Positions 1,774 to 12,744 of a DNA stretch of 36,559 nucleotides are shown piece by piece. A model generated the notes under the pieces. It made no database searches. It saw only the letters and a program-made list of their open reading frames with translations, and was not told the DNA's origin. The position numbers and the translations under genes are program-made. Every line of letters begins with the position of its first letter. The stretch's first letter is position 1. The stretch covers positions 1 to 36,559 of the forward strand of contig CALFOM010000024.1 of the NCBI GenBank assembly GCA_937919685.1, in the 5' to 3' direction. Source of the stretch: an uncultured Phycisphaera sp. Lineage in GTDB: Bacteria; Planctomycetota; Phycisphaerae; Phycisphaerales; SM1A02.

Positions 1774-1818
1774 AAAAATGAAAGGCCGGGACGGAATGCG
1801 ATCGCATTCCGTCCCGGC
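1774..1818 (-). terminator. Intrinsic terminator: 34-bp perfect palindrome
   Basis: Bases 1785-1818 are a perfect palindrome with 17-base arms (GCCGGGACGGAATGCGA and its complement), so an RNA hairpin would form with only a few unpaired bases at its tip. On the minus strand it is followed by CTTTCATTTTT, an imperfect T-rich tract. It lies between the stop of the lipoprotein gene at 1890 and the xylB start at 1725, where termination of the efflux operon is expected. The symmetry means a DNA-binding site or cruciform cannot be excluded. Confidence 0.8.
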
Positions 1819-1889
1819 ACTGTTCGTTCCATCGATGCGTCTCTTGACGCGCCATGCCTCGATGCCCGGCATCAAGGTTTCAAGCCGGC

Positions 1890-2585
1890 TCAGTGATCTG
1901 GCGTGCCATCACCATCATGATCGTGCGAGACACCATCGGCGTGATCGTGGCCTCCGGCATTGCCGTCCACCGCTCCGGCGTTCTCCTCGCCCTTCAGTGA
2001 ACCGCGGCGAGGCTCGCCTCGCATGGGCTTCCCGCCGACCCAGATCCGAGTGGCGTCGATGACGAAGAGGCCTTCGTCGTTCCGCTCGTTGACCACACCC
2101 TCGACCACGACGAATTTCAGGGGTTCGAGACCACCGGCGCCCTCTGCATTGGCCGCGATTGGATCGCCGGCACTTCCCGCAAGACGAATCGTGGCGGAAC
2201 CCGCGGTGATCCCGTTGGGATCCTCGCAGCAGTAGTCCCAGGGGAGGGGGCAGTGATCTTCGTCGCCCATGAGTTCGCACGACAAGAGCGATGGATCGGC
2301 GACCGTGAAGATTGCAATCCCATCGACAAACGGTTCGACCCGGCCGCCGACGCGTGCAAGGAAAGTCACCGAGTCACCGACTGAAGCAGTCGGCTTGATC
2401 TGAATGAGATCCGCAACTTCCGCCGGGCGATCGGTGGTGAAGAAGGCCGCCGGAATCATCGCGCGGGTGGGGCCGACGTCATTGGACGCAGTGGTATCAC
2501 CGCCGCCCTGATCGCAACCGTTGAGCGTGATGAAGAGAGCTGAAAGCCCGAGAAGTAAGTGCGTGTTTCGAGACATGCGAGACAT
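1890..2585 (-). CDS. Lipoprotein with CPLPWDYCCE motif and His/Asp-rich tail
   Basis: Predicted periplasm-facing lipoprotein of 231 residues. The chosen ATG at 2585 has GGAG ten bases upstream; the ORF-track start 29 residues earlier adds a non-signal-like extension. A short hydrophobic segment (LLLGLSALFITLNGC) ends in a lipobox with Cys24 as the lipidation site. Two beta-rich stretches (VTFLARVGGRVEPFVDG and LKFVVVEGVVNERN) flank a Cys-rich motif, HCPLPWDYCCE, which could hold a metal or disulfides. The pattern is reminiscent of an OB-fold, but that is inference. The C-terminus, GGHDHADGVSHDHDGDG, is rich in His and Asp and looks metal-binding. The gene is the last of the export operon, 44 bases after the second permease and before the strong terminator. 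I do not know a named family. A periplasmic metal-binding or substrate-delivery partner of the transporter is the best guess. Confidence 0.75.
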   Translation of the reverse strand: MSRMSRNTHLLLGLSALFITLNGCDQGGGDTTASNDVGPTRAMIPAAFFTTDRPAEVADLIQIKPTASVGDSVTFLARVGGRVEPFVDGIAIFTVADPSLLSCELMGDEDHCPLPWDYCCEDPNGITAGSATIRLAGSAGDPIAANAEGAGGLEPLKFVVVEGVVNERNDEGLFVIDATRIWVGGKPMRGEPRRGSLKGEENAGAVDGNAGGHDHADGVSHDHDGDGTPDH

Positions 2586-2629
2586 GGTTGAGTGACTCCA
2601 GAACGGAATGGAAAAGATGGAACGAGATA

Positions 2630-3811
2630 TTATGAGGAACGAAGGGCTTCGGGTACGGGAAGCCGCAGACAACGAATCGCGGGGATCACCGCCCCTACGA
2701 CGCCGAGAGTGAGGCCGCCGAGCAGACCGAGGGCGACGACGCCGGGGCCGATCTGGATCCCGAAGACGCCCATGGAGAATCGGATGGTTACCTGATCAAG
2801 AAAAAGAATGCCGATGGCGGCTGCCACCAGAGCTCCGATCGAGGCGGTGAGGACCGACTCTTCGACCAAACTGCGGACGATGGCGATTCGACTGTATCCC
2901 AGCGTCTGGAGGGTGCCGATCTCCCGGACCCGGCTTGCGAATGCGGCATAGGTGGTGTTGAGCCCGCCGATGATCCCGCCGGCTGCCACCAGAATGGCGG
3001 TGATCACCACCATGAGTCGGATCGGGGTGAAGAAGGCGGCGAGCGAGGCGTAGTAGTCGCTCTCTCTGGTGGCCACGAGTTCGAGATCGAGTCGGGTTGC
3101 GGCGAAACCGCGGGCGGATGCGAGGTCGCCGTCGATGGTGCGAATCACCACGCACGAGAGGGTGTCGCGTTGTCCGACGATGAGCAGGTCCGAGAGCGGA
3201 ATCCAGATCTCCCCTTCGATCACCCCTCCGTCAGCATCGATCACGCCGACGATGGTGAAGGGGCGGTCATCGACGATCAGCGTCGCATTCAGAATCTGCT
3301 CCGCGTCCTCCAGCCCGAGGCTGCGGGCGGCGAGGCGGCCGATCGCGACCTCGTCGGCGCCGGTCTCCGGGAAGCGGCCGTCGGTCAGCCGTGCCTCCTG
3401 ATGCACGAGAAAGGCGGAGGGCGTGATTCCGCGGAACAGCGCGTTGGTCTCATCGCGCTCGGTGGCGGAGTCGGCATTGGTCTGGAGTCGAATCGGAATG
3501 GCCAGATGGACTTCGGGCGAGATCGCTTCGACCCCGGCGGCGATCGCGATGCCGCGAATGCCCGTCGCGGCGATCCCCGGCGTTCGCATCGGGATCTCGC
3601 TGCGCTCGACGCTTTCTTCGCTTCCCGCGCCCATGAGAATGACGTTGCGTGATGAACCACTGATTTTCAGTGACTCTTGCATGCCGCTGACGAAGCCGCC
3701 CGCCGCCATCGCCAGTAGTACTACCAGCCCGCATCCGCCGGCGCTCATCAGGAGCCGGCTGGGACTGCGTCCAAGATTCCGGACGGCGTACTCGAATGGA
3801 AGTTTGTGCAT
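2630..3811 (-). CDS. ABC transporter permease, FtsX/MacB type (second permease)
   Basis: Inner-membrane permease of 393 residues in the MacB/LolCE/FtsX superfamily. One N-terminal transmembrane segment (about residues 20-43) is followed by a large periplasmic domain (about 45-265) that includes IVGVIDADGG and GEIWIPLSDL. Three C-terminal segments follow, around 268-292, 315-345 and 355-385. The cytoplasmic stretch VREIGTLQTLGYSR is the typical coupling region that contacts the ATPase. It lies 19 bases downstream of the first permease, and the pair probably forms a heterodimer served by the single ATPase gene. Substrate cannot be read from the sequence. These systems use ATP hydrolysis to drive mechanical movement across the periplasm rather than to pump through the membrane. 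Confidence 0.88.
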   Translation of the reverse strand: MHKLPFEYAVRNLGRSPSRLLMSAGGCGLVVLLAMAAGGFVSGMQESLKISGSSRNVILMGAGSEESVERSEIPMRTPGIAATGIRGIAIAAGVEAISPEVHLAIPIRLQTNADSATERDETNALFRGITPSAFLVHQEARLTDGRFPETGADEVAIGRLAARSLGLEDAEQILNATLIVDDRPFTIVGVIDADGGVIEGEIWIPLSDLLIVGQRDTLSCVVIRTIDGDLASARGFAATRLDLELVATRESDYYASLAAFFTPIRLMVVITAILVAAGGIIGGLNTTYAAFASRVREIGTLQTLGYSRIAIVRSLVEESVLTASIGALVAAAIGILFLDQVTIRFSMGVFGIQIGPGVVALGLLGGLTLGVVGAVIPAIRCLRLPVPEALRSS

Positions 3812-3830
3812 GAATCAACTTTCTGGTCGT

Positions 3831-4991
3831 TCAGACCGCACGGAACCCCTGCACGATCTCGCCGCGAGAAGCGCGAATCGCAGGCACCGCGCCTGCAAGC
3901 AATCCGAGGCCGACCGCGATCCCGGCGCCGATGAACGCGAGGCTGGGATCGTTCGCGATCTCGACGTTCATCCCTTCCATGGTCATGCTGAAACGACCGA
4001 TGCTGACCACCACCGTCGAGGTCACGGCGCCAACCACCCCGCCCGCAAGGCCGAGCAGGGCGCCTTCGAGTAGCACCATCCAAGCGATCAAGCCACCGGT
4101 GTAGCCAAGCGTCTGAAGAACCGCGTGATCCCGGATCCGGTCCCGCATCGCGAGCACGATCGCGTTGGCCACCAGGGCCAGGACCGCGATCAGTGACGCC
4201 CAGCCAACCCAACTGGCGAAACCGACCAGTTCGATGATGTCCCGCACCGCACGGCCGACGAATGCTTTCTCGGGCCAGGTGCTGGTTGGGAATTCGTCGT
4301 ATCGAAACGCTTCGTCGATACTGGAGGCGATCGATTCCATCTGCGTCGGATCATCGACGTTGACGTTGAATTGGGTCACGATACCCCCCGAACCGCCTCT
4401 GGTCACGGTCTCCTGAAGAAACGTGAGGTGGACGTAGGCGACGTTGCGATCCTGCGGACGATCGCTGCCGAGGATCCCCGCGACGAAGACGGTGATTCCC
4501 GCCGCGGAGAAACGGTCTCCCACCTTGATGCCTCGTCGGAGGGCGAGTGACTCACCGACGAAGGCCGCGTCACTCCGTGAGCGCCAGGCGGCGGCATCGC
4601 CTTCCAAAAACCGTCCGGCGTTGCCGATGGTCGCTTCGAGGTCGTCGTTGGGCACGCCGCGAAAGGTCACGACATCTAGGCTCGCGCGGCAGTTGGATAC
4701 GAGGATCTGCATCGGGATCACTGACTTGACGCCATCGATGCGCTTGATTCGATCTCCGTAGAACTCAGGAAGCCGACTGGTGAACGGGCAGAACCGGTTT
4801 TCCCGGTAGACGACGAGGGTCGCATCTTGCGCATTGCTGGTCGTCGCGGCATGGACGCCGCTCCGCATCGCTTCGACGCTGGTGAACAGGAACATCGCGA
4901 CCGCGATTCCCGTGATCGTCAATCCAGTGCGAATTGGAGCCCGAACGATCTGGCGCCAGACAGTTGGTATGACGCTGATGGCACGGTTCAT
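3831..4991 (-). CDS. ABC transporter permease, FtsX/MacB type (first permease)
   Basis: Inner-membrane permease of 386 residues with the FtsX/MacB plan: an N-terminal transmembrane helix (LTITGIAVAMFLFTSVEAM, about 23-42), a periplasmic domain, and three C-terminal helices. The coupling motif RDRIRDHAVLQTLGYTG precedes the second-last helix. The periplasmic domain contains two cysteines (RFCPF and VSNCRA). The ATG at 4991 overlaps the ATPase stop by four bases (ATGA), which implies translational coupling. It differs clearly from the second permease, consistent with a heterodimer of the LolC/LolE kind. With an adaptor and TolC-like protein in the same operon, a MacAB-like export role is more likely than lipoprotein release, but the substrate is unknown. 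Confidence 0.88.
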   Translation of the reverse strand: MNRAISVIPTVWRQIVRAPIRTGLTITGIAVAMFLFTSVEAMRSGVHAATTSNAQDATLVVYRENRFCPFTSRLPEFYGDRIKRIDGVKSVIPMQILVSNCRASLDVVTFRGVPNDDLEATIGNAGRFLEGDAAAWRSRSDAAFVGESLALRRGIKVGDRFSAAGITVFVAGILGSDRPQDRNVAYVHLTFLQETVTRGGSGGIVTQFNVNVDDPTQMESIASSIDEAFRYDEFPTSTWPEKAFVGRAVRDIIELVGFASWVGWASLIAVLALVANAIVLAMRDRIRDHAVLQTLGYTGGLIAWMVLLEGALLGLAGGVVGAVTSTVVVSIGRFSMTMEGMNVEIANDPSLAFIGAGIAVGLGLLAGAVPAIRASRGEIVQGFRAV

Positions 4992-5722
4992 GACGAGGTC
5001 TCCGACATGGCTTGGTTACGAGATTTCGCTTCGGACGAGTCGTCGAAGTCCGACTCGGCAAGGCGCCCTTTTTCCAGATGCAGCACGGTGTCGCACCAGG
5101 CGGTGGTCTTCGGGTCGTGGGTGACCATGACGATTGTCCTTCCAAGTTCTATGTTGAGCTGCTTGAGCAGATCCATGATATTGGTGGCGCTCTCGCGATC
5201 GAGATCTCCGGTTGGCTCATCAGCGAGGATGAGGGTCGGATCAGTCACGATCGCGCGGGCGATTGCGACTCGTTGCTCCTGACCACCGGAGAGTTGACGG
5301 GGATAGTGATCGCTTCGGTCAGCGATGCCAACGAGGTCGAGGGCAGCCGCGACCTTCTGATGACGTTTCTTCCTCGTCAGCGAGTGAAGAAGCAGAGGCA
5401 ACTCGACGTTCTCGTACGCGGTCAGCACCGGGACGAGGTTGTAGAGCTGGAAGACGTATCCCACTGACTCGCTTCGCCACTCGGCGAGGGCGTTCCGCGA
5501 GAGCGTGTGGACGGGACGCCCGTCGATCGTCAACGAGCCTCGGGTGGGGCGGTCGATGCCCGCAAGGAGGTTGAGGAGGGTCGTCTTCCCGGATCCCGAA
5601 GGACCCATGAGGGCAACGAAACCACCACGCTCGATGTCGAGATCAAGACCGTCCAGCGGTGTGATCTTCTCGGTGCCTCGGGTATAGGTTCGGGTCAGGT
5701 CCCGGCATTCGATCAGGCTCAT
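4988..5722 (-). CDS. ABC transporter ATPase, MacB/LolD family
   Basis: Cytoplasmic nucleotide-binding subunit of 244 residues that powers the two downstream permeases. All core motifs are intact: Walker A GPSGSGKTT (about 40-48), Q-loop in YVFQLYNL, signature LSGGQ (144-148), Walker B LILADEPTGDLD (164-175) and H-loop His202 in VTHDP. YVFQLYNLVPVLTAYENVELPL is typical of the LolD/MacB/FtsE group. The last 20 or so residues (DFDDSSEAKSRNQAMSETSS) are a polar extension. The gene overlaps both neighbours by ATGA, placing it in the middle of a tightly coupled operon: adaptor before, permease after. Confidence 0.95.
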   Translation of the reverse strand: MSLIECRDLTRTYTRGTEKITPLDGLDLDIERGGFVALMGPSGSGKTTLLNLLAGIDRPTRGSLTIDGRPVHTLSRNALAEWRSESVGYVFQLYNLVPVLTAYENVELPLLLHSLTRKKRHQKVAAALDLVGIADRSDHYPRQLSGGQEQRVAIARAIVTDPTLILADEPTGDLDRESATNIMDLLKQLNIELGRTIVMVTHDPKTTAWCDTVLHLEKGRLAESDFDDSSEAKSRNQAMSETSS

Positions 5723-7275
5723 GTGTCGGCTCCATTTTTTGCGACCGGTTCTCGGAAGCGGATTGCGGTCCCCGTTTTGATCGAAGGGTCGAGGATGACC
5801 ACATCACCCGGACGCAGGCCGGATCGAATTTCAACCCAGCCGTCGACGCGGACTTCGCCCACCTCCACCGACCTTCGTGCGGCGACCCCTTCGTTTCCGC
5901 TCCGTTCGTCGACGACCAAGATGCCACCTTTCGGATCGACGGCGGATTCGGGCGCGAAGATCCGGCTAATCGTTCGGCGTACTCCGGCTTCGTTCCCGTT
6001 TTTGGAGGGCAGGATCCTGACTCGGGCAAGCATGTCGGGCTTGAGCAGCGGGGAGGGATCGGTGATGTGCACCTTTGCCTCGACGGTGTTCTTCGAGAGG
6101 TCCGCCCGATGGACGAAGCGGGTGATGACTCCCCGAAAGAGGGTGTTGGGAAGAAGGTCTACGACGATCTCCGCGGGTTGCCCCACCCCGACCTTCGCGG
6201 CCTCACCCAGCGGAATATCGGCTCGAACCTGGAGCATCGTGGGATCGTAGAGGTGGACGATATGAGCGCCGTGCTGACCGTTCGCGAATTGAATGGTCGA
6301 TCCAGGTGACGCAATTCGTTCGATGACCACGCCGTCAATCGGCGAGACCACCGTGCATCGATCCAAGGCGAGGGCCGCTACGTCTCGATCTGCGGCCGCC
6401 CTCGCGACTTCGGCCTCCGCGACCAGCAGCCCAGCTTGAGCGGACTCGAGGTCGAGTCGTTCCTTGATGCGGAGTTCGCGGTCGGAGACGGCGGCTCGCC
6501 GTTCCGCTTCCGCCGCTTGCAGCGAAGCCACGACTGCTGCTCGCTCCATCTCCAGTTGCGTGATTTTCGCCTCCAACGATCGGAGTCGAAGTCCCATTCT
6601 GGCCACCGGTCCGGCGGCGACGGCGCCTTCATCGACGAGCCCTCGCTTGCGGTCGTACTCGTCGCGAAGTTCGTCGTGGCTCGACTTTACTTCGTCGATT
6701 CGCGAAGGGAATGCCTTGAGGTCCGCGGCGATCTTCGCTTCGTTTGCTTCCGCGATCGCCACTCGTCGATGTACTGAGACCCGTGTCTCGTAGTCGGCTT
6801 CGGCGGCGGTCAACCTCGCCAGAGCGGCGCTGCGGAGCCCGACTCTTCGATCGACTTCGGTTTCAGCTCGGCGAAGGTTGATCTCGGAATCCGCTCGGAC
6901 CAGCGTCGCAACCGGTTGTCCGATCGTTACGAAATCGCCCTCGAGAACGAGGATCGACTCCACGATTCCCTGGGTGAGTGCAGAAGCATAGATCGAGAAC
7001 GGATCCGCCTCCACCCACCCGGGTGCCTGCACGATTGCGTTGCCCTCGGATTTCGGAGTCGGCGCTTCATCGGTCTCGATGGTTTTGAGCGCGACCGTGA
7101 CCGCGGTCACATCGGTGCGCGGTCGGACCGCATCCCAGCCGACAAAAGCGAGCAACGCCGCGGTCGCGAGCAGAATGAGAATGGGAAGTCCGAGCCTGGA
7201 AAAGATTCGGCGGGGCGGTGTCGGCACCAGGTCGCCGGCCGAGGGTCGAATCGACTCGAATCCTGAATCGGTCAT
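5719..7275 (-). CDS. Periplasmic adaptor (HlyD/MacA/RND membrane-fusion family)
   Basis: Membrane-fusion protein of 518 residues that would bridge the inner-membrane ABC transporter and the TolC-like channel. A Pro-rich cytoplasmic N-terminus is followed by a membrane anchor (LGLPILILLATAALLAFVGW, about 28-47). A split lipoyl domain comes next: VEADPFSIYASALTQGIVESILVLEGDFVTIGQPVATL on one side and CTVVSPIDGVVIERIASPGSTI on the other. Between them lies a long Ala/Glu/Arg-rich coiled-coil hairpin of about 180 residues. A beta-barrel domain (VRADIPLGEAAKVGVGQPAEIVVD) and a membrane-proximal domain follow. It is longer than typical MacA (about 370), mainly in the hairpin. ATGA overlaps join it to TolC upstream and the ATPase downstream. 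I infer export from periplasm to outside; the substrate is unknown. Confidence 0.9.
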   Translation of the reverse strand: MTDSGFESIRPSAGDLVPTPPRRIFSRLGLPILILLATAALLAFVGWDAVRPRTDVTAVTVALKTIETDEAPTPKSEGNAIVQAPGWVEADPFSIYASALTQGIVESILVLEGDFVTIGQPVATLVRADSEINLRRAETEVDRRVGLRSAALARLTAAEADYETRVSVHRRVAIAEANEAKIAADLKAFPSRIDEVKSSHDELRDEYDRKRGLVDEGAVAAGPVARMGLRLRSLEAKITQLEMERAAVVASLQAAEAERRAAVSDRELRIKERLDLESAQAGLLVAEAEVARAAADRDVAALALDRCTVVSPIDGVVIERIASPGSTIQFANGQHGAHIVHLYDPTMLQVRADIPLGEAAKVGVGQPAEIVVDLLPNTLFRGVITRFVHRADLSKNTVEAKVHITDPSPLLKPDMLARVRILPSKNGNEAGVRRTISRIFAPESAVDPKGGILVVDERSGNEGVAARRSVEVGEVRVDGWVEIRSGLRPGDVVILDPSIKTGTAIRFREPVAKNGADT

Positions 7276-8750
7276 GACGAGATCTCCGGGCTGAAGCTCG
7301 ATGGGCGAGCAGCGGTCTTGGGGGCATCGGTGGTCGCGGTGGTTTGGTCGATGTCGGGCACTTTCGGGGGCATCGCGGGGATGTCGAACGAGCCTCCGAC
7401 CTGTTCCTCGAGTGAGATGCGATCGGCGATTGCGGCCAACTGAAAGTTCACCAGACGCCGTTCGGCGGTGATGCGCTGCTGCTGGGCGAGCAAGAGAACG
7501 GTGAGGTCGATGACGCCTTCGCGATACGCGGCCTCCGCCAGCACTTCCGCTTCCGTCGCCGGGGTGAGCACCGTGTCCGCATAGGCGATGCGTTGCTGAT
7601 CCGATCGCAGAAATGCTTCGCGACTCAAACGAACTTCGCCGACGGCACGCCGACGCACGGAGAGAAGCTCAAGTTGTGCACGATCCAGTCGTGCATGGGC
7701 CGCCGCGATCGCTGCGCTTCCATCGTCGAGGATCGGGAGCGTGATCTTGGCCCCGGGGAGCACGGCCTGGCGATCCCCGAAATTCTTGTTCCAGGCCGCA
7801 CCGACGCCCACTTCTGGAAGTCGTTTCGATCCGGCCAGACGACATTCCGCTTCCGCGGCGAGCACTCGCATGCGGGCCGCAGCGACATCCAGTCGCGTGG
7901 CGCGAGTGAGTTCGACGATTCGTTGTTCGTCGGGAATTGACTCGCGGGAAGTCACGAGGGAACCGCTCAGTTCGAAGTCGGTGGATCCGTCGGGACATCC
8001 GATGCTCGCGAGGACCGCGAGCTTCATCTGGCGTGCGGTGCGCCGGCTGGCATCGGCAGTGGCGGCGCTCTCGGCCGCATTCAGCCTAGCGCGGTCGAGG
8101 TCGATCCTGGATGCCTCACCGGCTTCGAATACGCGAGTCACTGCATCGACGGTCCGTCGGGTCGCCTCCGCGTGGGCTCCATCGAGCAGATGCGTCGCTT
8201 CGGCGGCGATCGCAGCGGCATGAGCCCGACGAACCTCCGCGTCGAGCCGGATCATCGAGGCCGCGGCGAGCAGGATCATCGCGCGGCGATCTGCATCGCG
8301 GGCGTCAACTCGATCCGGTCGGGTCCAGATCCAGGTCAGTTGCTGAGTGACGCCGACGATCGCAGGAGCACCTGAGACTCCATCCACGGCGATGCCGATC
8401 GCAAAGTCCATTGCGGGGTTCGGCGGAAGATCGGCTTGGGCGAGTTCGGCGCGAGCGAGGTCGAGTTCTGCCAGAGACGCCCGGATGCCGGCGTCCCGTT
8501 GGAACGCGACGCGGACCGCGGTGTCGGCATCGAGGGGTTCGAGCCCGTTCCAGACCGAAGGAGGCGAGACGGGTGACGCCTTGACCGAGTCAAGATCGAC
8601 ACGTTCGCCAAGGCGAGGCCGAACGAGTGCGTCCACGTTCGATCGATCGGACGCAGGATCATTCGAGATACAACCCGATGCCGTCAGGGCGAATCCGGAC
8701 AGCAGCAGGAGCGGCGCGGTGCCGCGGAGATTGAGGGTTGGGAGGATCAC
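7272..8750 (-). CDS. TolC-like outer-membrane efflux lipoprotein, GTG start
   Basis: Outer-membrane factor of 492 residues forming the exit duct of the export system. The ORF track begins at 8903, inside the preceding gene. I prefer GTG at 8750 because GGAG lies six bases upstream and the protein then starts with a proper lipoprotein signal (LPTLNLRGTAPLLLLSGFALTASGC, lipobox Cys27). Two repeated helical halves follow, as in TolC/CusC: the first around DTAVRVAFQRDAGIRASLAELDLARAELAQADLPPNP and the second near TRATRLDVAAARMRVLAAEAECRLAGSKRLPEVGVG. Long amphipathic Ala/Arg/Glu-rich helices lie between. The Pro-Asn-Pro context after LAQADLPP is common in this family. The stop overlaps the adaptor start by ATGA. 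It resembles CusC/CzcC-type factors as much as TolC itself. Confidence 0.88.
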   Translation of the reverse strand: MILPTLNLRGTAPLLLLSGFALTASGCISNDPASDRSNVDALVRPRLGERVDLDSVKASPVSPPSVWNGLEPLDADTAVRVAFQRDAGIRASLAELDLARAELAQADLPPNPAMDFAIGIAVDGVSGAPAIVGVTQQLTWIWTRPDRVDARDADRRAMILLAAASMIRLDAEVRRAHAAAIAAEATHLLDGAHAEATRRTVDAVTRVFEAGEASRIDLDRARLNAAESAATADASRRTARQMKLAVLASIGCPDGSTDFELSGSLVTSRESIPDEQRIVELTRATRLDVAAARMRVLAAEAECRLAGSKRLPEVGVGAAWNKNFGDRQAVLPGAKITLPILDDGSAAIAAAHARLDRAQLELLSVRRRAVGEVRLSREAFLRSDQQRIAYADTVLTPATEAEVLAEAAYREGVIDLTVLLLAQQQRITAERRLVNFQLAAIADRISLEEQVGGSFDIPAMPPKVPDIDQTTATTDAPKTAARPSSFSPEISS

Positions 8751-8829
8751 GTTGGACTCCGAACGAAGTTCACGACGACAGACTCTGGTGCGCGATGCAT
8801 CACAAGAGAACGGCAGAAGTTCTTCGGAA

Positions 8830-9261
8830 TCAGCGTTGGATGATGATGATGCGACGCAGCCATCTCGGGGACCTGGTGGGGTCCTTCGCCAGTGGCGGTT
8901 CACTCTGATATTGGTCAGGTTCGAATCGGTCTTGGGAACAGACGACGACCTCGACCGGCACGTTCATCACGTCGGGAAGGAAGGCAATGGTGTCGAGCGC
9001 GATTCGAAGATCTTGATCGATGGTCGCCGGTGCCTTGAGGCAGCAGCCTTCTCCACATCCGTTGCCGTCGTGGGCCGGCGGGGGAGCATCCGTTCCTTCT
9101 TCGCACTGATGGGCGGAGCAGCAGGATGGAAGCAGTCCGCCGCTCGATTCCGGTCCGGAAAGTGCCGCGGCACTGCGAAGCACGCAACAGCACAACGGCA
9201 TCGCGATCACGAGCGCTGTCGTGACCAAGAGACGCATGAAGTTGTGATGCATGAGACGCAT
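8830..9261 (-). CDS. Small exported Cys-rich protein, first gene of the efflux operon
   Basis: Predicted product of 143 residues that I cannot assign to a named family. A hydrophobic segment (FMRLLVTTALVIAMPLCCC, about 8-26) looks like a signal peptide or lipoprotein signal ending in three consecutive cysteines. Ten cysteines in all are visible (24-26, 47, 48, 53, 69, 73, 74, 108), arranged as SCCSAHQC and GCGEGCC, with a few His nearby. This suggests metal binding or disulfides in the periplasm. The C-terminal half (IDQDLRIALDTIAFLPDVMNVPVEVVV) is ordinary, and the end is basic (RWLRRIIIIQR). The start is uncertain: ATGs at 9261, 9252 and 9237 are all possible and none has a clear Shine-Dalgarno. 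It lies 79 bases before the TolC-like gene and probably leads the operon. A metal sensor, scavenger or chaperone role is inference. Confidence 0.65.
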   Translation of the reverse strand: MRLMHHNFMRLLVTTALVIAMPLCCCVLRSAAALSGPESSGGLLPSCCSAHQCEEGTDAPPPAHDGNGCGEGCCLKAPATIDQDLRIALDTIAFLPDVMNVPVEVVVCSQDRFEPDQYQSEPPLAKDPTRSPRWLRRIIIIQR

Positions 9262-9612
9262 GGAAGGTGAAATGCTCCGGGCGTGGTGTCTGAACGATCA
9301 AGTATATGCGACCGCGTCGACGGAAGGTTGCGAGAATTTGTATCGGACGAGGCCCCTCGGGGTGCATCGGGTCCTTTCCACCCTCTTCTGGAGCCCGGAA
9401 TCCCAGATTGTCGGATCGCGTCGTGGGGTGTTCCGATCAGAGGGATTTCTCAGATTCAGGGCAGGCGGTCTGGTTCGAACGGGTAACTCCAGCCGTCCGG
9501 GAACCCGAGACCCGTTGGCGGTGGACCCCCGGTCGAATCTGAGCATCGGTCGGTGGCTCGGAATCACAGCGGGTACCTTTTGGGGGATCGCCAACTCTTC
9601 GAGGTGCACGCC
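9262..9612. other. Divergent intergenic region between efflux and mannosidase genes
   Basis: About 350 bases with no convincing gene; the ORFs drawn here have no recognisable domains and run into the mannosidase gene. It must hold the promoters for the leftward efflux operon and the rightward alpha-mannosidase. On the minus strand TATACT (bases 9306-9301) is a fair -10 match placed about 40 bases before the Cys-rich gene start, but no good -35 box is visible. A piece near 9471-9481 resembles a tRNA T-loop but no cloverleaf forms around it. Confidence 0.5.
9301..9306 (-). promoter_or_regulatory. Possible -10 box (TATACT) for the efflux operon
   Basis: TATACT on the minus strand differs from the TATAAT consensus at one position and lies about 40 bases before the ATG of the Cys-rich gene. 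The six bases at the expected -35 position (AACCTT) match poorly, so this is only a tentative promoter. Confidence 0.25.
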
Positions 9613-12600
9613 ATGCTTCCCGATCTTGAATACGCCGCTCTTCGATTTGAAACCTTCGCCGACGAGGTGCTTCGACCCGTCGCGACGCCGGTCATGTCCC
9701 CGCTCGAGATCACGGTCGCCCAGTTTGAAGGCCGCCCGACGCACGACGAGATCAGTTCGCTCCCGGATGATGAGTTCGCCCGGGTGGAGACCGGTTGGCG
9801 ATGGGGGCCGGTGTGGAGTACGGCGTGGTTTCGACTCAAGGGTGATCTGCCGGAATCGATGACGGGGCGGGCCGTGCACCTTCGATTCGATTCGGGGACG
9901 GAAGCCTTGCTCTGGCGGGACGGAGCGCCGTTTCATGGCTTCGATTTCAATCGCGATCGGGCCCCGCTTTTCGACTCCGCAGAACACGGAGGATCCGTCG
10001 ATTTACTCGTCGAAGCAGCCTGCAACATGCCCCTCGGAATCTCGACGTTCTGGTGGGATCACCCCGAACTTCATGCTCGCTGGAAGGAAATGAAGCCCGG
10101 CCGTCTCGCCGCGGCGGAACTGGTGGTCTACGACGACCTTGCCTGGCGTTTCGTGGAGGCCTGGGATCTCGCGCGTCGAACGCTGTTGGTCCAGCCGACC
10201 TCTTCGCCGCGAGCCCATCGACTGGAGGCGGGTCTGCGAGAGATTCTGGGGACCATCCCGGCCCACGATCCACGACCCGCCATGGAGGCTCGCTACGACG
10301 ACCTCAAGATCTTGCTTCGTGGTAATGGCCCGGCGAGCGGAACGGGGACGACCTCCATCGCGGTTGGCCATGCCCACATCGACACCGCTTGGCTCTGGCC
10401 GATCGCGGAGACCCGCCGAAAGTGTCTGAGGACCTTTGCCACCGTCGATCGGATCATGGAGCGGTCACCGAATTTTCGATTCCTCTGCAGTCAGGCACAG
10501 CAGTATCAGTGGGTCCGGGAGGATTCTCCCCGGCTCTTTGAGAGAATCGCGACGCGGGTCCGCGAGGGACGCTGGGAACCGGGCGGGGCGATGTGGATCG
10601 AACCGGATTGCAACGCACCCAGCGGCGAGAGCTTCATCCGTCAGATTCTTCACGGGACGGGTTGGTGGCGTGACGCCTTCGGATCCGACGCTCCGCAACG
10701 CCATCTCTACCTTCCGGACACTTTTGGTTTCCCCGCCTCGATGCCTCAGATCATCCGCGGCGCCGGGCTTGACACCTTCATCACCAACAAGATCAGTTGG
10801 TGCGAGCGGAATAAGTTTCCGCATGTCAGTTTCGATTGGGTCGGAATCGACGGGACTTCGGTGCTGACCCACCTGACGCCCGGGCACAACTACAACAGTT
10901 CGATCCTCCCGGCGGATCTGCAGTTCGCCGAACGCAATGTCACCGAACTCGATCACGCCGCGATGCCGACCTGGTTGCAGCCCTATGGCTTCGGCGACGG
11001 CGGGGGCGGTCCGACAGTCGAGCAAACGGAACGCATTGAATTGATGGCAGAGGGTGTGGAGGGTCTTCCCGCGGTCGAGTTTGGTCGGGCCGACGATTTC
11101 TGCGGCCGCCTCCACGACGAGGCCGCCGAACTTCGCGCCGCGGGACGGGAGCCGGCGAAATGGGACGGCGAGCTTTATCTCGAACTTCATCGTGGCACCT
11201 ACACTTCTCATCAGTGGCTTAAGCAGGCCAACGCCGAGGCGGAGTCAGCGTTGCGTGCGATCGAACTGATCGGGTGCGGCACACCGGATGCGACAACGGC
11301 TTCCACGGCGGCGCTGCGTGAGCGACTCGATGCGACGTGGAAACTCGTCCTTTTGAATCAGTTCCACGACATTCTTCCCGGGTCCTCGATCCCAGAGGTC
11401 TATGTCGACGTCCGAGCGCAGTACGAGTCGATTCGATCGGTCTGCAAAGTCGAACTCGACGCCGGTCTCGATCGATGGTCCGCTTCGCTGGATGCCACCG
11501 GTTTCGATCAACCGGTCCTGATCATGAATCCAGCAAGTACACCGCGTGGTGGCGTGGTGAACTTGGGGGGTGAACTGCTCCCGGTCGATTTGGTGCCGGC
11601 GGCTGGTGGAATGCTGGTCGACGCCTCGCGGCTGCATGCAGTCGAGCCGGTGGTGGTGGAGGAGCGATTGATGCGCAACGGCCGCGTCGAAGTGGCCTTC
11701 GACGAATCCGGTCGCGTGATCGAACTTCGGCGAGCCGGCGGGGAATCGGTCAACGGTCGCGATGAACGTGGGCTGGTTCGACCACTGAATCGATTCCGGC
11801 TCTACGAGGATCGGCCTCGTCGCTGGGATGCCTGGGACCTTGACCGCGACTATCACGAGAAGTTCGAGGAAATTCTCAGCGATGCGGCTCGGCATGCGGT
11901 CATCGATTCAGGACCGTTTCGCGGTGCGATCGAATTCGAACATGCGATCGGTCGGTCCAGTCGACTGGTGGTGCGTTACGTACTCGATGCCGGTGCGGAT
12001 CGACTCGATGTGCAACTGCTCGTCGACTGGCAGGAGGATCGGACGCTGCTTCGCGCCGAGTTCCCGACGGGGATCCGGGCTCGCAGTGCGACCTTTGGAA
12101 TTCCGTTCGGAGCCATCGAGCGAGCCACGCATCGGAATACTTCTTGGGAGGAGGCCCGATTCGAAGTGCCGGGTCGACGATGGATGGATCTCTCCCAGCC
12201 CGGGCTTGGCCTCGCGGTGCTCGATGCGGGCATCGTGGGGCGGAATGCACATCAGTCGACGCTCGGCCTAAGCCTGCTTCGAAGTCCGGGGTTCCCCGAC
12301 CCGACTTGCGATCGCGGAACCCATCGTCTCGCGTACGCCTTGATGCCGCACTGCGGTGATCGCTTTGCCGCAGGGGTCGATGCTGAGGCGGAGGCATTCG
12401 CGGAACCACTGGTGGTCCGGCGGCTGAAGTCGGGCGAGGCCTCCGCGGGCGGCGTCGATCGGATTCGTCCGATCGTCATCGAAATCGGCGGCGCGGCGGC
12501 GGTCGAAATCGTCGCTCTGAAGCCGGCCGAGGACGGCGACGGCGTGGTGCTGCGAATCGTCGAGAAGCACGGCGGTTCCGGAACGGCGACGATTCGCGTG

Positions 12601-12744
12601 CCCGGTTGGGGCGATCCCGCGCCGGTGGATCTCCGTGAGCGTCCGGTGAACCCGGATGCGAAGTTCGAGGTGCGTGCCGACGGTGGATTCGAGTTGCCGC
12701 TTCGTCCCTTCGGGATCGAGTCGATCCGACTCCGAAAACGATGA
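9613..12744 (+). CDS. Alpha-mannosidase, glycoside hydrolase family 38
   Basis: Large cytoplasmic retaining alpha-mannosidase of 1043 residues, close to the usual bacterial GH38 length. The ATG at 9613 is chosen over the ORF-track start at 9553 because GAGG sits eight bases upstream. The zinc-binding motif HAHIDTAWLWP is at residues 253-263 and the catalytic nucleophile is Asp369 in YLPDTFGFPASMPQI. A helical N-terminal region (1-240) precedes the catalytic domain (about 245-510). The helical middle domain contains LYLELHRGTYTSHQWLK and LLNQFHDILPGSSIPEVY, both family hallmarks, and beta-sandwich domains fill the C-terminal half. There is no signal peptide, so substrates must be imported. The symporter and beta-mannosidase downstream on the same strand suggest they act together on mannose-containing oligosaccharides. 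The exact linkage preference cannot be read. Confidence 0.95.
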   Translation: MLPDLEYAALRFETFADEVLRPVATPVMSPLEITVAQFEGRPTHDEISSLPDDEFARVETGWRWGPVWSTAWFRLKGDLPESMTGRAVHLRFDSGTEALLWRDGAPFHGFDFNRDRAPLFDSAEHGGSVDLLVEAACNMPLGISTFWWDHPELHARWKEMKPGRLAAAELVVYDDLAWRFVEAWDLARRTLLVQPTSSPRAHRLEAGLREILGTIPAHDPRPAMEARYDDLKILLRGNGPASGTGTTSIAVGHAHIDTAWLWPIAETRRKCLRTFATVDRIMERSPNFRFLCSQAQQYQWVREDSPRLFERIATRVREGRWEPGGAMWIEPDCNAPSGESFIRQILHGTGWWRDAFGSDAPQRHLYLPDTFGFPASMPQIIRGAGLDTFITNKISWCERNKFPHVSFDWVGIDGTSVLTHLTPGHNYNSSILPADLQFAERNVTELDHAAMPTWLQPYGFGDGGGGPTVEQTERIELMAEGVEGLPAVEFGRADDFCGRLHDEAAELRAAGREPAKWDGELYLELHRGTYTSHQWLKQANAEAESALRAIELIGCGTPDATTASTAALRERLDATWKLVLLNQFHDILPGSSIPEVYVDVRAQYESIRSVCKVELDAGLDRWSASLDATGFDQPVLIMNPASTPRGGVVNLGGELLPVDLVPAAGGMLVDASRLHAVEPVVVEERLMRNGRVEVAFDESGRVIELRRAGGESVNGRDERGLVRPLNRFRLYEDRPRRWDAWDLDRDYHEKFEEILSDAARHAVIDSGPFRGAIEFEHAIGRSSRLVVRYVLDAGADRLDVQLLVDWQEDRTLLRAEFPTGIRARSATFGIPFGAIERATHRNTSWEEARFEVPGRRWMDLSQPGLGLAVLDAGIVGRNAHQSTLGLSLLRSPGFPDPTCDRGTHRLAYALMPHCGDRFAAGVDAEAEAFAEPLVVRRLKSGEASAGGVDRIRPIVIEIGGAAAVEIVALKPAEDGDGVVLRIVEKHGGSGTATIRVPGWGDPAPVDLRERPVNPDAKFEVRADGGFELPLRPFGIESIRLRKR

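Follow-up and report, generated by a model that had tools for sequence, protein, structure and literature searches.

To our knowledge, the metal pumps that span the envelope of Gram-negative bacteria belong to the resistance-nodulation-division (RND) type. The metal chaperone CusF is an oligonucleotide/oligosaccharide-binding (OB) fold, and in two further systems, NosL-NosDFY and CcmE-CcmABC, an ATP-binding cassette (ABC) transporter has as its partner a chaperone for metal or heme that faces the periplasm, of which CcmE is again an OB fold. In the Cus system, CusF passes Cu(I) via CusB to CusA (PMC8277102), and the czcICBA operon begins with czcI (PMC7060636). Pumps of the MacB type take their substrate from the periplasm, and an ATP-driven movement of the periplasmic domain pushes it into the adaptor-TolC channel (PMC5985334). 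One such pump, PvdRT-OpmQ, was reported to expel pyoverdine-metal complexes (PMC8277102). The subject of this text is a seven-gene operon in a stretch of 36,559 nucleotides, referred to as the window, from an uncultured Phycisphaera sp. (contig CALFOM010000024.1, assembly GCA_937919685.1); loci designated by L and a number are its relatives. Judged from sequence comparison, the operon probably encodes a tripartite ABC efflux machine (type VII, MacB/LolCDE-like) for a soft, thiophilic metal, either as the ion or as a chelate, with Zn/Cd/Pb as the most likely class, a reading to which a rough probability of 0.62 is assigned.

The seven genes lie consecutively on the minus strand, from 9261 to 1890. 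The first (8830-9261) encodes a small exported Cys-rich protein of 143 amino acids with ten cysteines. It is followed by a TolC-like outer-membrane factor (7272-8750), whose open reading frame reaches 8903 and matches PF02321 (OEP; E 3.5e-27 on 7272-8903); the GTG at 8750 is the best inferred start and yields a lipoprotein signal, LTASGC. Next come a periplasmic adaptor of the HlyD/RND_mfp type (5719-7275; PF16576, HlyD_D23, E 2.5e-16; TIGR01730, 119 bits against a cut-off of 94.9), an ABC ATPase of the LolD/MacB class (4988-5722; PF00005, E 2.2e-36), the FtsX/MacB-type permease 1 (3831-4991; PF12704, E 1.1e-13; PF02687, E 9.9e-13) and permease 2 of the same type (2630-3811; PF12704, E 1.6e-13; PF02687, E 1.1e-11). 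The last gene (about 2577-1890, also given as 1890-2585) encodes a lipoprotein with an LNGC lipobox, a predicted OB fold, a core of the CxTPWDYCC kind that reads HCPLPWDYCCE in the window, and the His/Asp tail GGHDHADGVSHDHDGDG. Three ATGA overlaps (7275/7272, 5722/5719 and 4991/4988) link the TolC-like gene, adaptor, ATPase and permease 1. Gene starts are inferred throughout, and many of the loci compared are metagenome-assembled. The original prediction had described these seven genes, with their trans-envelope exporter, ATGA overlaps, ten-Cys first protein (motifs CCC, SCCSAHQC and GCGEGCC) and motif-bearing last protein, and every gene was confirmed by the open reading frames and, for the five middle ones, by Pfam; the motifs of the two end proteins were found as described. 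Neither end protein has a Pfam or NCBIfam match, while the five middle genes can all be named. What the sequence shows is a transporter whose ATPase is split from its two FtsX-type permeases, complete with adaptor and outer-membrane factor and accompanied by two conserved exported proteins rich in Cys.

In both permeases a MacB_PCD periplasmic domain precedes an FtsX domain, each above its Pfam cut-off, which places them in the type VII ABC superfamily (MacB/LolCE/FtsX). The HlyD_D23, RND_mfp and OEP matches supply the adaptor and the TolC-type outer-membrane factor that also characterize MacAB-TolC and PvdRT-OpmQ. The cassette differs from these two pumps in its split ATPase and permeases, in having two different permeases, in a pair of cysteines in permease 1, and in the lipoprotein and the Cys-rich protein. 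Membership in MacAB was rejected, since the ATPase (5722-4988) and the permeases (4991-3831 and 3811-2630) are separate genes and no fused MacB is present. With CusCFBA and CzcICBA the cassette shares an outer-membrane factor and an adaptor, a first gene for a small exported protein (czcI in those systems) and a putative counterpart of the periplasmic metal chaperone CusF, but it would be driven by an ABC ATPase rather than by an RND proton antiporter, and its Cys/Trp lipoprotein has no sequence relation to CusF. There is no RND permease (PF00873) among the seven genes, such genes being found only next door, as in L069; likewise, no CusF Pfam match was obtained among 61 lipoprotein members, whereas an OB fold, as in CusF, is predicted for the lipoprotein. 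The parallel with NosL-NosDFY and CcmE-CcmABC is one of analogy, as those systems have no adaptor or TolC and no sequence relation to them was found. By the tests made, the cassette is a member of neither MacAB-TolC nor Cus/Czc, and it would work like a cross of the two.

A split ATPase and FtsX-type permeases also occur in LolCDE and DevBCA/YknXYZ, none of which has Cys-rich partners, and the scores against them are below the curated cut-offs. The LolD, DarD and MacB models of NCBIfam match the ATPase, all of them below cut-off, and the best score is that of LolD (229 bits, cut-off 308). Together with the weak matches of the permeases to LolCE models, this could point to a LolCDE-like lipoprotein-sorting machine of which the lipoprotein is the cargo or an accessory. 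However, the lolCE scores (56 and 27 against 362) also fall short, an adaptor and an outer-membrane factor, both absent from Lol, belong to the operon, and the conserved residues of the lipoprotein lie in its folded domain and not only at the lipobox. LolCDE membership was rejected for the low scores and for the presence of the adaptor and OEP, and a sorting function is given hardly any weight.

The association of the end genes with the transporter was found throughout the phylum. Relatives of the lipoprotein are encoded in 87 of 294 sampled Planctomycetota genomes, about one third, and the count was the same whether the query was one sequence or a profile of 61 members. In a scan of 84,980 species, the signature CxxPWD[YF]CC marked 488 loci encoding relatives; the best 80 of these were inspected, and nearly all are labelled planctomycetes. 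The lipoprotein gene adjoins permease genes on the same strand in 59 of 60 loci of the first search, and a permease lies beside it in 79 of the 80 from the species scan, where the exception, L133, lies 95 bases from a contig end. The Cys-rich gene leads the operon in 43 of 46 testable loci of one locus set and in 50 of 55 of another. These sets overlap partly and share descent, so the counts are not independent events. Two gene orders were seen: that of the window (adaptor, ATPase, permease 1, permease 2, lipoprotein) and, in family f30 and one other, an order in which permease 2 and the lipoprotein precede the adaptor, ATPase and permease 1. The recurrence of both end families in the same position across the phylum makes the arrangement more than chance. 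Homologues of the end genes lying mostly away from transporters, or lacking their cysteines, would have spoken against the original prediction, and instead the linkage proved fixed and the Cys core near-invariant. In the window's own genome the lipoprotein is single-copy, and no close second copy of permease 1 was found there.

In an alignment of 61 lipoproteins, C112, W116 and C119 are invariant, C120, P115, D117 and D97 are kept in 60 members, and C103 in 55. The core takes the form CxxPWDxCC among 140 homologues, with two exceptions recorded, L080 (CGSTWSGCG) and L089 (CGAPWDCCC). The His/Asp-rich tail behaves otherwise, since at least three His are present in just 13 of the 140; such tails are found in the window's clade, lengthening there into extended stretches of (HD)n, with L036 and L076 as separate cases, while the lipoproteins of L071 and L072 carry an HD run near the N-terminus instead. 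The tail was rejected as a family feature and is regarded as a lineage-specific add-on to a Cys/Trp core that defines the family. As an argument for metals, the His tail of the original prediction holds only in part, most of the family being without it. An AlphaFold model of the lipoprotein has a confident core at about residues 41-185, with most blocks at pLDDT above 90, and consists of strands and a short helical insert that bears the Cys motif. Foldseek matched this model to OB folds with probabilities of 0.97-1.0 (best E 1.9e-3, none below 1e-3), namely the anticodon domain of aspartyl-tRNA synthetase, OBody, RMI2 and CST subunits. A weak match to the Pfam OB-fold model PF01336 was given by 12 of the 61 members. 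The lipoprotein is accordingly described as a predicted OB-fold protein. No sequence relative with a solved structure was found in the PDB, no meaningful match in a viral fold library and no relative in a plasmid search. One locus (L031:9186-10100; G270:C6:40191-41111) encodes two tandem domains of the lipoprotein type, the upstream one more diverged.

For the Cys-rich first protein, a composition filter, applied to the 46 loci with enough upstream sequence, retrieved a small exported Cys-rich open reading frame before the operon in 40, compared with 60 of 504 control windows. The six misses were read individually, and the gene was also present in L048, L055 and L067, which gives the 43 loci mentioned above; in L049 and L064 a regulator of the ArsR family occupies its slot, and L088 has neither. 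Alignment of 89 members of the family (A4) showed C24, C25, C47, C48, C69, C74 and P123 to be near-invariant, and the C-terminus is often short and hydrophobic (LLI, LRI, ILQV) or reads RPPxS. Of curated models, only DUF2946 was reached, by one of the 89 members (E 0.0045). This is a real, fast-changing family without a curated model. Structure prediction, which the original prediction had proposed for both end proteins, was informative for the lipoprotein, but for the Cys-rich protein it returned one N-terminal helix and a remainder of low confidence.

As the Cys-rich gene stands first in the operon and its product is exported with a conserved hydrophobic C-terminus, the protein could itself be the cargo, a Sec-exported peptide taken from the periplasm, from which MacB-type pumps draw their substrates (PMC5985334), and released outside as a metal binder or bioactive peptide. 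However, the same family also opens operons of ion-exporting CusA/CzcA-type pumps, an ArsR gene replaces it in two cassettes, and L088 does without either. The conserved cysteines of the lipoprotein and the permease would also be left unexplained, and export of the protein as cargo is considered improbable. In L172:3825-7195 and L173:3568-7091, a Cys-rich relative stands with an apparent thioredoxin-like gene, one FtsX-like permease and an ABC ATPase, with no adaptor or TolC among the next genes; this is possibly a shorter relative system.

A point that the original prediction had missed is the pair of cysteines in permease 1, C68 (RxCPxTSxLP) and C101 (NCRASLD), which are invariant in 54 of 54 homologues and both lie within the MacB_PCD periplasmic domain. 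In alignments of their homologues, permease 2, the adaptor and the ATPase showed no invariant Cys. Cysteines are thus conserved in the lipoprotein, permease 1 and the Cys-rich protein, three periplasm-facing components, where the substrate could be met. The invariant cysteines of the lipoprotein and permease 1 would also suit a thiol, disulfide or redox machine, in which they would act as redox disulfides and the pump would export low-molecular-weight thiols or deal with oxidative stress, and in two genomes an apparent thioredoxin-like gene and an ABC/FtsX pair follow a Cys-rich relative. However, no thiol-disulfide oxidoreductase family is prominent beside the cassette, and what recurs with it are metal genes and His/Asp tails, so a redox machine is judged quite improbable.

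For the reading as a metal efflux machine, the following mechanism is proposed. The lipoprotein, anchored in the membrane, would bind the metal in the periplasm through a site of three or four Cys and the Trp of CxTPWDYCC, and would hand it to permease 1 via C68 and C101. The permease pair, closing under ATP, would then expel the metal from the cell through the adaptor and TolC, much as CusF feeds CusBA, but with ATP as the source of power. The Cys-rich first protein may serve as a periplasmic metal buffer, chaperone or sensor, placed as CzcI-type proteins are in czcICBA operons.

The genomic context bears on the nature of the substrate. A heavy-metal P-type ATPase of the ZntA type directly adjoins the cassette in three genomes, of families f2, f31 and f30: upstream in L031, downstream in L069, and downstream of the genome's second cassette in L179. 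All three ATPases score above the NCBIfam heavy-metal and cadmium-family cut-offs; two miss the copper-family cut-off and the third passes it narrowly (411 against 397). Those of L031 and L179 carry CPC and C-terminal DxG residues, as read from the sequence, which we take to be features of Zn/Cd/Pb pumps. Within 3 kb of about 42 cassettes, three such ATPases were observed against about 0.1 expected by chance, a figure that comes from simple arithmetic on 84 such ATPases in 40 genomes (about 215 Mb) and is uncorrected for the ATPases being one of several families looked at. In L069 the cassette and its ATPase are followed by a second Cys-rich protein (ending TIALLI and assigned by position and composition), a TolC-like protein, an adaptor ending HAGHNH and an RND pump of the CusA/CzcA type (TIGR00914, E 4.2e-208, 694 bits against a cut-off of 701). 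Members of the Cys-rich family also occur outside the cassettes. In L171 one stands ahead of an RND gene (TIGR00914, E 6.6e-90, partial gene), in L174 ahead of an adaptor operon with a divergent ArsR-family gene (CzcB/NccB model TIGR00999, E 8.4e-45, short of the cut-off) and in L175 ahead of an adaptor whose N-terminus is His-rich. Through these three relatives and the similar protein of L069, the family appears as the first gene of metal-efflux operons, as is the case for CzcI-like/DUF2946 proteins. The ArsR proteins that take the place of the Cys-rich protein carry the motifs ELCVCDL in L049 (NCBIfam metalloregulator NF033788, E 5.3e-22, 77 against 55 bits) and CCVCD in L064 (PF01022, E 4.8e-12).

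Paralogues of the OB-fold lipoprotein were seen in a different setting, behind a lipoprotein with an HDHDH-rich N-terminus (L176:5687-6786, L177:5787-6880, L178:2317-3488 and L183:8349-9375). In those read in L176, L177 and L183, HDPSTCPFC replaces the core motif. Beside the paralogue of L177 are a MerC gene and a GTPase whose match to the zinc chaperone ZigA scores 592 (cut-off 600), MerC-like genes occur near the paralogues of L176 and L178, and a P-type ATPase is encoded about 4 kb away from that of L183. The ZigA-type neighbour is what a metallophore or zinc-recovery exporter might have, that is, a pump that exports a metal-binding molecule, as PvdRT-OpmQ does with pyoverdine from the periplasm, and that acts in metal shortage. 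PvdRT-OpmQ is itself MacB-type, with a periplasmic substrate, and also expels pyoverdine-metal complexes (PMC5985334, PMC8277102). However, no biosynthetic genes travel with the cassette among the flanking open reading frames, and the ZntA-type ATPases and the CusA/CzcA-type pump that adjoin it are detoxification genes. Such an exporter is regarded as unlikely.

The original prediction had left a choice between metals and thiols, and it gains support from the context, which favours metals by way of the ZntA-type ATPases, ArsR, CusA/CzcA-type pumps, ZigA and MerC. That the operon has a role in metal handling is thought probable, and export is somewhat favoured over another direction. Zinc-class metals are preferred because of the type of the ATPases, the His tails and the ZigA link, with Zn/Cd/Pb rather than Cu/Ag standing at even odds.

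Several observations weigh against efflux of a metal of this class. The 180 open reading frames around the cassettes belong mostly to families unrelated to metals, and the general neighbourhood was rejected as metal evidence for this reason; as the surroundings in general are not rich in metal genes, the argument has to be built on particular cases, and few loci have the P-type ATPase and ArsR links. Upstream sequences showed no metal-box promoter motif, and none of the palindromes upstream of the first gene was recurrent. The conserved cysteines could form disulfides rather than metal sites, and the lipoprotein of L080 deviates from the usual core. The lipoprotein of L079 stands alone, the one exception among the 60 loci of the first search. 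ZigA-type genes are usually linked to zinc shortage and not to excess, which makes the direction of transport uncertain, and the ZigA link would also fit a role in zinc shortage. As to L079 itself, the solitary homologue (L079:8794-9339) has an intact core motif and no FtsX cassette nearby, and a toluene-tolerance/Mla-like ATPase is encoded about 3.5 kb upstream.

A candidate -10 element, TATACT, was read from the sequence at 9301-9306 on the minus strand, 40 bp upstream of the first ATG, and it is found at a similar place in the closest relatives, L091, L092, L093 and L095. At the other end, an intrinsic terminator (1785-1818, minus strand; a stem of 15 pairs, 11 of them GC, and a T-rich tail) ends the operon before a xylulokinase gene. 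The latter (211-1725 in the window) lies 3' of the cassette in many Phycisphaerales, a synteny kept despite the strong terminator of the window and with no evident functional link. Divergent from the operon is a plus-strand open reading frame of 1063 amino acids (9553-12744), by its motifs probably an alpha-mannosidase of family GH38. In part of family f30, as in L039:3770-7095 and similarly in L040 and L047, the cassette is directly preceded by a multihaem cytochrome c gene and a tetratricopeptide repeat gene.

A literature search found no description of this cassette, many journals being outside its coverage. It is conceivable, at somewhat less than even odds, that the cassette represents metal-efflux machines of a new class with a wide distribution in Planctomycetota: an ABC tripartite pump with its own OB-fold Cys/Trp lipoprotein as metallochaperone and a metal-relay Cys pair in the permease, an ATP-powered and separately evolved counterpart of the RND systems Cus and Czc. 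If true, an ABC-driven pump with a dedicated lipoprotein chaperone would be a second solution for the expulsion of metals across two membranes, and a function would be given to two conserved protein families of the Planctomycetota that are without a Pfam or NCBIfam entry.

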